Origin: Reinekea marina | GTDB taxonomy: Bacteria; Pseudomonadota; Gammaproteobacteria; Pseudomonadales; Natronospirillaceae | DNA: 64,000 nucleotides | Reading direction: 5' to 3' | NCBI RefSeq assembly: GCF_030409715.1 | Contig: NZ_JAUFQI010000001.1 | Location: 2,654,501-2,718,500, forward strand | Part shown: piece by piece, positions 29,014 to 54,770 of the stretch | Layout: each line of letters begins with the position of its first letter | Position numbering within the stretch: the stretch's first letter is position 1 | Notes under the pieces: generated by a model | Told to the model about the DNA's origin: nothing | What the model saw: the letters and a program-made list of their open reading frames with translations, nothing else | Database searches by the model: none | Program-made: the position numbers and the translations under genes

Positions 29014-29157
29014 GGAATACTCCTGTTAGATAGTGCTGGGTGGACTCCAGCTTCTCGCAAAGTGCATTTAAATGCAATGGGTTTGGATTTGGGCTGCAAG
29101 CTGTATGCTGCATGGAAAATGAAAACACATTGAACTAGAGTGCGGTAGAACAAGTTA
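29014..29157. other. Promoter region of the S66 peptidase gene with a 14-bp palindrome
   Basis: This stretch lies upstream of the peptidase start. It holds a perfect palindrome TGCATTTAAATGCA (29063-29076) and a short tract GGGCTGCAAGCTG that resembles the start of the REP-like units. No coding potential was seen. Confidence 0.5.
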
Positions 29158-29267
29158 GCTTGTGTGGTCAGTTTTATTTTTGTGGGCATCTGAGCCAGGA
29201 AGGCGAAGTTGAGCGGTGCATGGATGCACGAAAAGCGACCCGCGAAAATGAAACTGGCCGCACGAGC
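29158..29267 (+). repeat. Structured intergenic element, copy A
   Basis: Arms 29158-29186 and 29239-29267 pair over all 29 positions, 23 Watson-Crick and 6 G.T. They enclose a 52-nt core (29187-29238) that starts CATCTGAG and ends AGCGA. Inside the core, GCC/GGC forms one hairpin and GTGCA/TGCAC around TGGA forms a second. Five copies in the window share the core but have different stem sequences. Confidence 0.8.
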
Positions 29268-29280
29268 CGAGGTTGGCTAG

Positions 29281-29365
29281 GGGCTGCGGCTGCGGGCTGC
29301 GGGCTGCGGGTAAAATCAAAACACTTAAACAATCGCGTCTTCGCTTTGCTTCGAGCGCTCCTACT
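29281..29365 (-). repeat. REP-like unit with GC-rich minisatellite (unit 1)
   Basis: On the plus strand it opens with four tandem GGCTGCGG-like repeats, then TAAAATCAAAACAC, and ends in GCGCTCCTAC. Read on the minus strand it begins GTAGGAGCGC and runs to CGCGA, the form of GTAG-type REP sequences known in Pseudomonas. It lies 13 bp after structured copy A and just before the 3' end of the next gene. Confidence 0.65.
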
Positions 29366-29373
29366 TTATTTGG

Positions 29374-30264
29374 TTAGTTTTTTAGCCATACCGCGAAATA
29401 CTTTGCAATTTTATTTATTTCATTCGAATGGCTTGGGAATTCTTTTTCTAGCAATACTAGAGCATCGGCTAAGGTTACCTGATGAAGATTAATGCAGTCA
29501 TCGAAAATTAACGCATTAATATTTTGTTGGAAAGTTGCTGAACTGCTCTCAAGGCTTTTAAGAATGCTTTCGTCTAACATATCTTCAGGGTCTTCTAGAG
29601 GTAATGTTGCTTGGTTGTACAAATGCAGATATATCTGAGCCAACTGTGTTGGCGTAAATGTTTCTTTGCTCCGGATTAACCAAGCTAATGATATTAGATT
29701 ATGACCAAAAAAATGAGGCTGCTTTAAACAGGCATCTAGCAAAGTTGATAGACTAATCTCTTTTGAATTTCTGCTGATCGGAAAGCTACTATGAATGTAA
29801 TAAGTAGAAGTGACGAACTCCGTCATTCTATTTAAAAACACGGGAATTTGACCCGATTTTAACAGAGGGTACATACATTTAAACGCAAGCAGAATAGTTA
29901 TGTTATGTGACAAGGTATCGCTTTGCTTTGAAGCAAGATCAGCATAAAACTCGAAAATACTCTCAAAGCCCTTTTGCTCATGCCACTGCCACATAGCTTG
30001 ATAAGCCGCAGGGTAAATCCCGCTTTGTAATATTCGCGCAATACGCACTTGTGAGAATTTTGGCGCTTCGACTTGAACTGAGAACTCCCCTGTAACGGTT
30101 AACTCACTCTTAGAGATTAATTTACTAACTTGAGACCAAATTGCATCGTTTTGCTCAAATGCCGTTTGAAGGAAACTAGCCGCCAAAAACGCCTTAAGTG
30201 CATGTGGCTGGTGAATACTAGCACTGCTATAGAGTGCACATTCAAGTAAACCTTCTTTAGTCAT
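29374..30264 (-). CDS. Hypothetical protein, unrecognised
   Basis: I do not recognise this 296-residue protein. It looks soluble and mostly helical, with no signal peptide or membrane segment. Histidine-bearing helices such as SHNITILLAFKCMYPLL and PHFFGHNLISLAWLIR are the most distinctive parts, but no known active-site motif is seen. The ATG has GGAG 5 bp upstream. It is divergent from the Fur-box gene at 30450 and has repeat elements on its 3' side, so it sits in an accessory region. Confidence 0.75.
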   Translation of the reverse strand: MTKEGLLECALYSSASIHQPHALKAFLAASFLQTAFEQNDAIWSQVSKLISKSELTVTGEFSVQVEAPKFSQVRIARILQSGIYPAAYQAMWQWHEQKGFESIFEFYADLASKQSDTLSHNITILLAFKCMYPLLKSGQIPVFLNRMTEFVTSTYYIHSSFPISRNSKEISLSTLLDACLKQPHFFGHNLISLAWLIRSKETFTPTQLAQIYLHLYNQATLPLEDPEDMLDESILKSLESSSATFQQNINALIFDDCINLHQVTLADALVLLEKEFPSHSNEINKIAKYFAVWLKN

Positions 30265-30387
30265 TTAAACTCCAAAACAATCCATCGCAATTATGTTCAC
30301 ACTAAACACACCTTGATTACACCACGTTATTTTAATATGTGTGGCAGTACAAGCTCATTATTGGTGATTACGAAAGGAACAATCTAC

Positions 30388-30415
30388 TTGACTCCCAAAT
30401 GAGAATGACTATCAT
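30388..30415 (+). promoter_or_regulatory. Sigma-70 promoter of the 72-residue gene, overlapped by a Fur box
   Basis: TTGACT (30388-30393), a 16-bp spacer and TATCAT (30410-30415) form a good promoter reading toward the gene at 30450. The -10 falls inside the Fur-like palindrome. Confidence 0.65.
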
Positions 30416-30417
30416 TT
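30397..30417. promoter_or_regulatory. Fur box
   Basis: TGAGAAT-G-ACTATCA (30400-30414) matches 12 of 14 positions of the 7-1-7 Fur consensus TGATAAT-N-ATTATCA. Flanking AAA/TTT extend the symmetry to 30397-30417. Overlap with the -10 suggests iron-dependent repression. Confidence 0.7.
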
Positions 30418-30449
30418 GAATTCGAGGAACAATAATTAAAGGAACACCT

Positions 30450-30668
30450 ATGAGCTATCACATCAATGCCTGGTTAGAAAATGGCGTACCTCAGCTGCAA
30501 GTTATTGATGCTCAGACAAAACGTGTTTGTATGAATTGGAGTTACCAATCTGAGTCCGAGCCAAGCGAGCAGCAAAAACACGAGATACAGCGGCTTTTTA
30601 GAGAGTTACTGCTGCTGACTTGTAAGCAAGATATTGCGAATTGTCGGGTGTTTAGGGTTGGGGTTTAG
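30450..30668 (+). CDS. Small protein under a putative Fur box, function unknown
   Basis: A 72-residue soluble protein with two cysteines (VCMNW and LTCKQD) and a third in ANCRVF; the middle is polar and acidic (SESEPSEQQKHEIQ), followed by a helix FRELLLL. I do not recognise the family. AAGGA lies 7 bp before the ATG. The Fur box and promoter directly upstream suggest expression under iron limitation. The repeat array begins straight after the stop, so the three structured elements B-D could lie in its 3' untranslated region. Confidence 0.75.
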   Translation: MSYHINAWLENGVPQLQVIDAQTKRVCMNWSYQSESEPSEQQKHEIQRLFRELLLLTCKQDIANCRVFRVGV

Positions 30669-30670
30669 GT

Positions 30671-30732
30671 TTTTTTTAGCTGCAAGCTTCAAGCTGCAAG
30701 TTATTAGCTGCAAGTAAGGTCAAAATATTTAA
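30671..30732. repeat. Degenerate REP-like minisatellite (unit 0)
   Basis: Repeats of AGCTGCAAG and AGCTTCAAG are followed by TAAGGTCAAAAT, the same signature found inside the better REP-like units downstream. The terminal GTAG head is missing. Just after it, CCGCTTTGGTGGTG copies the inverted right arm of element B. Confidence 0.55.
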
Positions 30733-30748
30733 ACCGCTTTGGTGGTGT

Positions 30749-30819
30749 GTTTTAGGCTTCGGGCTGCGAGCTTCGGGTAAGGTCAAAACATTCGCGGCTT
30801 TGCTTTGCGCGCTCCTACT
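30749..30819 (-). repeat. REP-like unit 2
   Basis: It opens GTTTTAGGCTTCGGGCTGCG, continues to GGTAAGGTCAAAAC, then TTCGCGG through GCGCTCCTAC. GTTTT and AAAAC bracket the GC-rich part. On the minus strand it starts GTAGGAGCGCGC and ends CCGCGAA, a GTAG-type REP form. Confidence 0.7.
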
Positions 30820-30840
30820 TGAGTGTGATGCTGATGATTA

Positions 30841-30951
30841 GCTTTGGTGGTGGGTTTCGCTGGAGTGGGCATCTGAGGCATGGATGCCGAAGTTGAGCGG
30901 CGCTGGGATGCGCGAACAGCGATCCACGGAAGTGGAACGCACCACCAAAGC
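30841..30951 (+). repeat. Structured intergenic element, copy B
   Basis: Outer arms GCTTTGGTGGTG (30841-30852) and CACCACCAAAGC (30940-30951) are a perfect 12-bp stem. After one mismatch, 8 further pairs follow, then a GGA/GGA internal loop and 5 pairs GTGGG/TCCAC. The core 30870-30922 has hairpins GGC/GCC and GCGC/GCGC. Confidence 0.8.
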
Positions 30952-30967
30952 GGAAATAAACCCATGA

Positions 30968-31057
30968 GTTTTAGGCTGCGGGCCTCAAGCTGCGAGCTGC
31001 GGGCTGCGGGTAAAGCCAACACATTCGCGGCTTCGCTTTGCTTTGCGCGCTCCTACT
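30968..31057 (-). repeat. REP-like unit 3
   Basis: The same plan as unit 2, with a longer minisatellite (GGCTGCGGGCCTCAAGCTGC and onward), ACACATTCGCGG and the terminal GCGCTCCTAC. It sits between structured copies B and C. Confidence 0.7.
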
Positions 31058-31078
31058 TGAGTTTGATGCTGATGATTA

Positions 31079-31189
31079 GCTTTGGTGGTGGGTTTCGCTG
31101 GAGTGGGCATCTGAGGCATGGATGCCGAAGTTGAGCGGCGCTGGGATGCGCGAACAGCGACCCACGGAAGTGGAACGCACCACCAAAGC
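31079..31189 (+). repeat. Structured intergenic element, copy C
   Basis: Almost identical to copy B and lying 238 bp downstream. The inner stem is GTGGG/CCCAC, fully Watson-Crick where copy B has one G.T. The core is 31108-31160. Confidence 0.8.
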
Positions 31190-31205
31190 GGAAATCAACC
31201 CATGA

Positions 31206-31283
31206 GTTTTAGGCTGTGGGCCTCAAGCTGCGGGCTGCGGGTAAGGTCAAAACATTCGCGGCATTGCTTTGCGCGCTCCTACT
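31206..31283 (-). repeat. REP-like unit 4
   Basis: GTTTTAGGCTGTGGGCCTCA leads to GGGTAAGGTCAAAAC, then TTCGCGGC and GCGCTCCTAC. It separates structured copies C and D. Confidence 0.7.
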
Positions 31284-31304
31284 TGGGAGAGGTGCTGTAG
31301 GTTA

Positions 31305-31415
31305 GCCTTGTTGGGTGGCTTTGCTGGAGTGGGCATCTGAGCCATAGATGGCGAAGTTGAGCGGCGCTGGGAAGCGCGAACAGCGACCCGCGGAAGTGAA
31401 GCCAGCCATCAAGGC
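31305..31415 (+). repeat. Structured intergenic element, copy D
   Basis: Arms 31305-31333 and 31387-31415 pair at 24 of 29 positions, including GCCTTG/CAAGGC outside and TGGCTT/AAGCCA inside. These are different bases from copies B and C at the same places. The GGA/GGA internal loop is kept. The core is 31334-31386, with GCC/GGC and GCGC/GCGC hairpins. Confidence 0.8.
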
Positions 31416-31505
31416 GGAACAATGGTGCAAAACAAAAATAACAGGGTAATAAACAGCGATTGAAATGAGAAACAGGAAGTAAATAGAAACAAACTGGGGA
31501 AAGTT

Positions 31506-54634: not shown

Positions 54635-54662
54635 ATTAAATATAGATTGGTACCGTTTTGAG

Positions 54663-54770
54663 CTTGGGTGGCTACTGCCCATTGATCGGAATCTGAGCCT
54701 GGAAGGCGAAGTTAAGCGGTGCATGGATGCACAAACAGCGACCGAACAATGGGCATTGGCCGCCTAAGCG
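54663..54770 (+). repeat. Structured intergenic element, copy E
   Basis: Arms 54663-54690 and 54743-54770 pair at 26 of 28 positions, 3 of them G.T, including CTGCCCATTG-type pairing unlike any other copy. The core 54691-54742 (52 nt) keeps ATCTGAGCC through ACAGCGA, with GCC/GGC and GTGCA/TGCAC hairpins. It lies between gap and galU, about 23 kb from the other copies. Confidence 0.8.

Follow-up and report, generated by a model that had tools for sequence, protein, structure and literature searches.

A high-copy, probably TwoAYGGAY-related family of structured elements with CsrA-type hairpin loops in Reinekea marina

Introduction

A 64,000-nucleotide stretch of the Reinekea marina genome (hereafter the window) contains five intergenic elements of 108-111 nt in which a conserved core sits on a long stem of changing sequence. 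What are these elements, on which strand is their structure kept, and what might they do? A preliminary description of the window saw them as a five-member family with a structure under selection, and could not place them in any known RNA or repeat family. NCBI taxonomy places the genus in the Saccharospirillaceae, Oceanospirillales; a literature search on Reinekea found nothing on repeats.

Here we follow the elements through their own genome, a sister strain and related genomes, using two covariance models: R1, built from Reinekea copies, and R2, built from a wider set; E-values of both are rough. Stretches carrying copies are designated L and genomes G.

Results

Five elements of one architecture

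All five elements are present in the window, four of them exactly where the preliminary description had put them and the fifth displaced by one nucleotide (54662-54769, not 54663-54770):

29158..29267, + strand: TwoAYGGAY-like copy 1; loops AGGAA and ATGGAT; 29/29 basal pairs, including six G-U; R1 113.4, R2 101.3 bits
30841..31415, + strand: tandem array of three elements; unit spacing 238 and 226 nt; linkers are REP-like (CTCCTAC) and GCTGCGGG-type repeats
30841..30951, + strand: TwoAYGGAY-like copy 2, array member 1; R1 115.9, R2 102.8 bits
30841..30869, + strand: copy 2, basal stem P1, 5' arm (alignment A1)
30873..30892, + strand: copy 2, hairpin 1 (P2); CTGA/GAAG tandem G.A helix; stem GGC/GCC; loop ATGGAT at 30880-30885
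30900..30913, + strand: copy 2, hairpin 2 (P3); stem GCGC/GCGC; loop TGGGAT at 30904-30909
30923..30951, + strand: copy 2, basal stem P1, 3' arm (alignment A1)
31079..31189, + strand: TwoAYGGAY-like copy 3, array member 2; R1 118.9, R2 106.1 bits
31305..31415, + strand: TwoAYGGAY-like copy 4, array member 3; hairpin 1 loop ATAGAT (without GGA), hairpin 2 loop TGGGAA; R1 112.7, R2 96.0 bits
54662..54769, + strand: TwoAYGGAY-like copy 5; loops TGGAA and ATGGAT; R1 98.8, R2 87.3 bits

Each element consists of a 5' part of 31-32 nt, a core of 49-50 nt and a 3' arm of 28-29 nt, and each can fold on the + strand into a basal stem of about 29 bp topped by a three-way junction with two hairpins; in copy 30841 the two loops are 24 nt apart, GGA to GGA. 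The 24-29 paired stem positions reported earlier are borne out, with standard pairs at 29/29 (29158), 25/29 (30841), 25/29 (31079), 24/29 (31305) and 26/28 (54662) positions, and the exchanges of GCC/GGC in hairpin 1 and of C-G for T-A in hairpin 2 both appear in the alignment. Of the four unrelated stem middles that had been proposed, those of 29158 and 54662 are clearly different, whereas the stems of the tandem copies 30841, 31079 and 31305 are visibly homologous.

Several other features lie around the array. REP-like repeats (reverse complement GTAGGAG) occur at 30810-30819, 31050-31059 and 31275-31282, each upstream of an array copy at a similar distance, and the open reading frame over the array also covers tRNA genes. 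At 30388-30450 there is a promoter-like sequence (TTGACT, spacing 16, TATCAT) upstream of a small frame starting at 30450; it is overlapped by a sequence that we take to resemble a Fur box, and the Rfam PrrF model matches this region far below the PrrF cut-off.

The family proved far larger than five. The genome (3.70 Mb, 9 contigs) holds 64 copies at E<=5e-8 in the 32 stretches searched, three weaker copies (an insertion sequence splits the one in L123) and six more that R2 found and R1 missed, giving 73.

The fold is kept, and on one strand

The basal stem is kept as a stem while its sequence changes, since pairs of the structure change on both sides in each of three alignments. In A1 (27 copies from two strains) 91.4% of pairs are standard and 20 of 36 pairs are changed on both sides; none of 500 shuffles reached any of five measures of covariation, and sliding the partner strand lowered pairing to 36-46%. 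In A3 (57 copies from 14 genomes, fitted to R1) both-side changes affect 38 of 42 pairs, with 0/500 shuffles as high, and in A5 (64 own copies, fitted likewise) 30 of 36. Selection on structure, with a fixed core on a variable stem, is thus strongly supported by both-side changes beyond those in shuffles, and genome-wide the stem differences leave pairing intact, with 88.5% of basal-stem cells paired in the 64 own copies.

Wobble pairs reveal the strand. In the basal stems of the 64 own copies, G-U cells outnumber A-C cells by 204:10, with G-U in excess in 61 copies, equal in 3 and fewer in none; the ratios in other genomes are 42:4 (A3) and 25:3 (A4). If dnaA (354.8 kb) marks the origin and the terminus is assumed opposite, own-genome copies running with replication show 16:1 and those running against it 188:9. 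Because the excess holds in both orientations, replication asymmetry fails to explain it, and the GGA-bearing strand is therefore the selected strand: in the window, it is the + strand that keeps its fold. Such a strand is most naturally read as RNA; the wobble alone is also compatible with single-stranded DNA.

Relation to TwoAYGGAY

Rfam at gathering thresholds returned nothing relevant for the window copies, and at E<=10 over 29050-31450 it returned no match to RF01731, the TwoAYGGAY family, with PrrF and sR2 far below their cut-offs. Run on the own genome, RF01731 gave 25 matches at E<=10, all below its cut-off of 43 (best 39.2) and none in the window. The connection is made by relatives. 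Among six loci found by R2 and scanned with RF01731, L163 (47.7 bits) and L093 (44.7 bits) exceed the gathering score of 43; L083 (40.8), a second copy in L093 (36.5), L151 (33.9) and L090 (32.0) fall below it, and L160 gave no match. The RF01731 members L210 and L211, which themselves pass the gathering score, match R2 in return at 44.8 and 47.6 bits (E 1.5e-8 and 3e-9).

In Weinberg et al. 2010 (PMC2864571), TwoAYGGAY is listed for human gut, gammaproteobacteria and Clostridiales as probably an RNA and probably without a cis-regulatory role. PMC4333381 notes tandem GAs and two motifs for CsrA binding in the family, and proposes, rather than validates, CsrA sequestration. As far as those texts describe the family, the Reinekea elements share with it an outer stem, here of 29 covarying base pairs, two hairpins with AYGGAY-type loops and tandem G.A pairs in one stem, to which the reciprocal model match is added. 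By contrast, the alignments of the relatives delete the long internal strands that the RF01731 consensus has between outer stem and core, and Reinekea has 64 or more copies in a single genome, where they form tandem arrays and divergent doublets. We conclude that the window copies are very probably homologous to TwoAYGGAY, and that they form a divergent branch outside the curated family because they fall far below its cut-off. The elements can therefore be placed, contrary to the preliminary description, since relatives pass the cut-off and family members match R2 back; the match to a described family is reciprocal through those relatives, the window copies themselves staying below the gathering score.

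Loops of CsrA type

The loops and the junction are the most conserved part of the element, and the basal stem the least. Weighted information content is near 2 bits in each loop and the C-G pair that closes it (CANGGANG in both cases), in the AGC and GCG of the junction, at its columns G74 and G102, and in the GG/CC at the inner end of the basal stem. The loops tend toward (C)ANGGAN(G) or a pentaloop containing GGA, on stems that vary freely. Strict CANGGANG occurs in 54/64 first loops and 32/64 second loops of the own copies, many second loops being pentaloops, and GGA is present in both loops of 58/64. Elsewhere GGA occurs in 54/57 first and 57/57 second loops of A3, and in 33/33 first and 32/33 second loops of A4, where at least one second loop (L163:1273) is misaligned and its GGA not secure; R1 and R2 were built from GGA loops, so these distant matches are partly selected for GGA, and their loops are no independent sign of conservation. 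The first loop is unusual in four of the 33 A4 rows: three lack the C-G closing pair and one is longer.

Beside hairpin 1, the CTGA and GAAG strands of Reinekea can pair as C-G, U-A and two G.A, and so fit the tandem GAs that PMC4333381 describes for TwoAYGGAY; in other genomes these positions are often Watson-Crick, for example CGGC/GCCG or CTGC/GCAG.

The consensus of both loops has the form of a CsrA/RsmA site, an ANGGAN loop closed by C-G, a likeness absent from the preliminary description; the core of the Rsm consensus is given as CANGGANG in PMC4353343. The own genome has one csrA (G000:C1:2827223-2827378), so CsrA is available to the elements; csrA is found in all 57 genomes searched, and its presence therefore does not discriminate.

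A patchy distribution

Counting the own genome and the sister strain, 15 of 22 genomes from the bacterial family have R1 matches at E<=1 (per-genome counts include reverse-strand shadows). R1 has none in four of the five other genomes of the genus (G001, G002, G004, G005), all four of which possess csrA, a combination that we count against the CsrA-binding explanation. A genome of another genus, G018, has 131 R1 matches, reverse-strand shadows included, so that the distribution is patchy. R2 reaches 120 of 293 genomes of the order, in 57 of 118 genera, as against 16 of 194 in which RF01731 passes its cut-off; 13 candidates per genome were scored in the R2 search, which is thus no measure of copy number. 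At E<=0.001 RF01731 matches 29/194 genomes of the order, 8 of these 29 with at least 10 matches among the 13 scored candidates.

The exact core pattern is found, among 57 genomes (own and 56 relatives), in the own genome only; in public genomes it is found in Reinekea forsetii G2M07 (10 stretches, 12 matches) and at 8 other loci. These 8 and four viral-contig stretches were judged from their folds to be chance matches, and the 12 were left out of A1. A plasmid search with one TwoAYGGAY locus gave no match.

Discussion

CsrA-binding modules as the preferred explanation

A CsrA dimer can clamp two ANGGAN-type loops on one small RNA, and the Reinekea element offers two such loops on a stem whose sense strand is kept. 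We consider it likely that the elements bind CsrA, and the explanation we favour, which we hold to be probable, is that they are CsrA-dimer-binding RNA modules transcribed by read-through. Copies would be transcribed mostly from neighbouring units, and the two loops would clamp one CsrA homodimer; pairing of sites with the CsrA dimer is discussed in PMC4333381. The long basal stem would hold the clamp in a rigid position, perhaps also shielding it from nucleases. Locally, any transcript carrying a copy would become a CsrA ligand, and the seventy-odd copies jointly could form a dispersed CsrA sink. That such a cell-wide sink is what selection acts on we propose only tentatively; it is less certain than CsrA binding, both being predictions. 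Against CsrA-binding modules we count the 6/64 own copies that lack GGA in at least one loop, namely window copy 31305 and five others. The strict CANGGANG form, present in no more than 54/64 first and 32/64 second loops, counts against them too, as do the lack of promoter, terminator and GacA-box signals in consensus scans of the copies and their inconsistent orientation to neighbouring genes.

Dispersal, mobility and the strongest rival

The strongest rival is a DNA-level mobile element, which would spread, in the manner of a REPIN doublet or an attC site, as single-stranded DNA in its folded form; loops and junction would then be recognised by a recombinase or transposase rather than by CsrA. 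Its natural ground is copy number and mostly intergenic dispersal: 67 own copies form 39 clusters, 29 of which overlap no frame and 10 of which overlap one or two frames of 90-253 codons (frames of 90 or more codons found by script, some of the overlapping ones probably spurious). G.T pairs form in DNA too, so the wobble asymmetry is compatible with single-stranded DNA. The rival is weakened by the match of the loops to a known protein-RNA site.

Orientation bears on both readings. With the terminus assumed opposite dnaA, 27 clusters run against replication, 9 with it and 3 are mixed (p=0.004); GC skew is positive over most of one side and negative over most of the other, though some parts deviate. 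A head-on orientation is normally avoided by strongly expressed RNA genes, so the 27:9 bias counts against CsrA-binding modules, and it is in favour of mobile DNA. Yet it would put the structured strand mostly on the leading-strand template, the opposite of the lagging-template preference of single-stranded DNA transposition.

Opposite-strand neighbours less than 600 nt apart are always divergent: 15/15 among the 150 matches listed for RF01731, 5/5 in the 73 own copies and 12/12 in 61 fetched copies of other genomes. As counted this is 32:0, none convergent, and at least 31 distinct loci among the matches listed, one G014 locus standing in two sets and some own pairs being near-identical copies, thus not independent events. 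Same-strand neighbours number 27, all in the own genome save one. This doublet rule, like the orientation bias and the lack of promoters at copies and in divergent spacers, fits mobile DNA well. A candidate hairpin role for the divergent spacers was rejected as not general, with z below -4 in 3/16 (L100, L093, L166), -2.7 in L117 and weak values in the others. In L117, L118, L123, L128 and L130, divergent pairs or single elements lie near apparent rRNA operon ends, presumed from a 112-codon frame that recurs there and is typical of 23S rRNA.

Comparison with the sister strain also favours mobility. There, 30 of 35 stretches align over at least 1.4 kb to an own-genome stretch, but array sizes differ, sister against own, being for example 4 and 2 (L172/L139), 1 and 3 (L190/L122) and 3 and 4 (L185/L112). 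Two of the five stretches without counterpart were examined: L193 contains 549 bp, with two copies, that are missing from the own genome, where the site is empty; a 12-base overlap in a GGCTGCGAG-type repeat marks the junction, and the own-genome site corresponding to L177 is filled by different repeats.

The flanks are more equivocal. The REP-like CTCCTAC (the reverse complement of GTAGGAG) lies within 150 nt upstream of 27/67 own copies, at 20-36 nt in 26, as mobile DNA would have it; against this, neither CTCCTAC nor GTAGGAG flanks any of 52 copies from other genomes. Among recurring neighbour frames compared by length, only two IS110-type transposases are conspicuous; they occur at 7 own stretches and have the look of invaders, which again weakens the rival. 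One belongs to an insertion sequence with a 351-codon transposase, which we take to be IS110-type. At two loci this insertion sequence interrupts the loop of hairpin 2, behind GCATGGAT, and a third locus shows a matching right junction:

L134:3060-3215, own genome: insertion-sequence locus
L123:3320-3475, own genome: insertion-sequence locus
L133:2560-3015, own genome: insertion-sequence locus

A second IS110-type frame (366 codons; L111, L128, L132, L138) lies 29-40 nt upstream of the 5' arm at 3 of its 4 stretches, and the sister-strain site corresponding to L128 (L178) is the same without that frame. Other IS110/IS1111 members are reported to target REP and attC (PMC11187229).

Taken with the strand-selected fold and the CsrA-type loops, which fit it less well, a DNA-level mobile element seems to us unlikely, if the most serious competitor. 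The known DNA systems also differ from the Reinekea elements. REP and REPIN sequences (PMC3116915) are likewise intergenic, of high copy number, arranged as tandem or inverted doublets and targeted by IS110-type elements; the Reinekea elements are about 110 nt long, with a three-way junction, an unconserved stem sequence and a sense-strand wobble asymmetry, and the CTCCTAC/GTAGGAG tag is missing from those 52 copies of other genomes.

In integrons, the structured strand of attC lies on the leading-strand template. The Reinekea elements resemble attC in this and in keeping a fold with variable stem sequence, and differ in being conserved at the tip, not the base.

Other explanations

CsrA-binding RNA might instead come from dedicated genes. 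CsrB/CsrC and RsmX/Y/Z carry GGA in hairpin loops and potentially bind CsrA dimers. The Reinekea copies would then be CsrB/RsmZ-like small RNA genes, each with its own promoter and terminator, and a divergent pair would share one bidirectional promoter at its centre. The presence of two CsrA-type hairpins in each unit and the divergent pairing would suit such genes, as would the membership of RF01731 in Rfam clan CL00106, which presumably holds CsrA-binding sRNAs. PMC4333381 proposes a sequestering sRNA and describes the same loop features in CsrB/CsrC and RsmX/Y/Z. Consensus scans tell against dedicated genes, detecting no promoter, terminator or GacA-box signal at the copies. In scans for the sigma-70 consensus, the best upstream scores are no better than those of shuffles, and 16 divergent spacers average 7.41 against 7.49 in shuffles. 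Spacers of divergent pairs can be as short as 43-44 nt. A T-run lies within 15 nt downstream in 2/67 copies, and the four Gac-like boxes (2 mismatches) in 275 kb all lie more than 700 nt from any copy. Unlike genes of the CsrB/RsmZ type, the Reinekea units also have two sites rather than many, at dozens of scattered loci. We regard dedicated genes as improbable, and read-through transcription of CsrA-binding modules is favoured because these scans found no promoter, terminator or Gac box of their own.

It is just as improbable that the elements are 3'-UTR stabilisers or transcription-end elements that act, REP-like, through the long hairpin, with loops of no role. Copies in other genomes do lie near stop codons, and for 20 of 29 classified copies the gene downstream is convergent, at a median distance of 31 nt; a hairpin of this kind is hard to reconcile with conservation that is greatest in loops and junction and least in the stem. 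Of 35 single copies in other genomes 29 could be classified, 15 of them antisense to both neighbours (5, 5 and 4 otherwise), while the wobble asymmetry selects the sense strand. The 36 own clusters of one orientation comprise 12 antisense to both neighbours, 10 and 5 mixed, and 9 sense to both. A cis-regulatory link to neighbouring genes was considered and dropped, no consistent orientation or link being seen in own or other genomes. Hammerhead, HEARO, attC and retron readings were set aside, their defining motifs being absent.

Implications

What is known here is the RNA family TwoAYGGAY; what is new is a high-copy divergent branch with an organisation that we did not find described. In the main text of open papers, our searches found no description of high-copy dispersal, tandem arrays, the 27:9 head-on bias or divergent-only neighbours, and nothing on CsrA with REP and the GGA motif. 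The family placement is firm, and function is inference. The divergent-doublet rule points to a mechanism of propagation or expression, none being found described in the literature searched.

Reinekea forsetii can be cultured, which makes the CsrA question directly testable. TwoAYGGAY was described in 2010, and its CsrA role is a proposal (PMC4333381); there is now a branch with more than 70 copies beside a single csrA. We suggest, as a speculation that is rather unlikely to hold, that TwoAYGGAY is a self-propagating parasite of genomes, a mobile unit on the scale of REPINs that began as a divergent doublet and whose RNA form serves to capture CsrA. If so, a parasite that titrates a global regulator would manipulate its host, or would be kept as a distributed CsrA buffer set by copy number.
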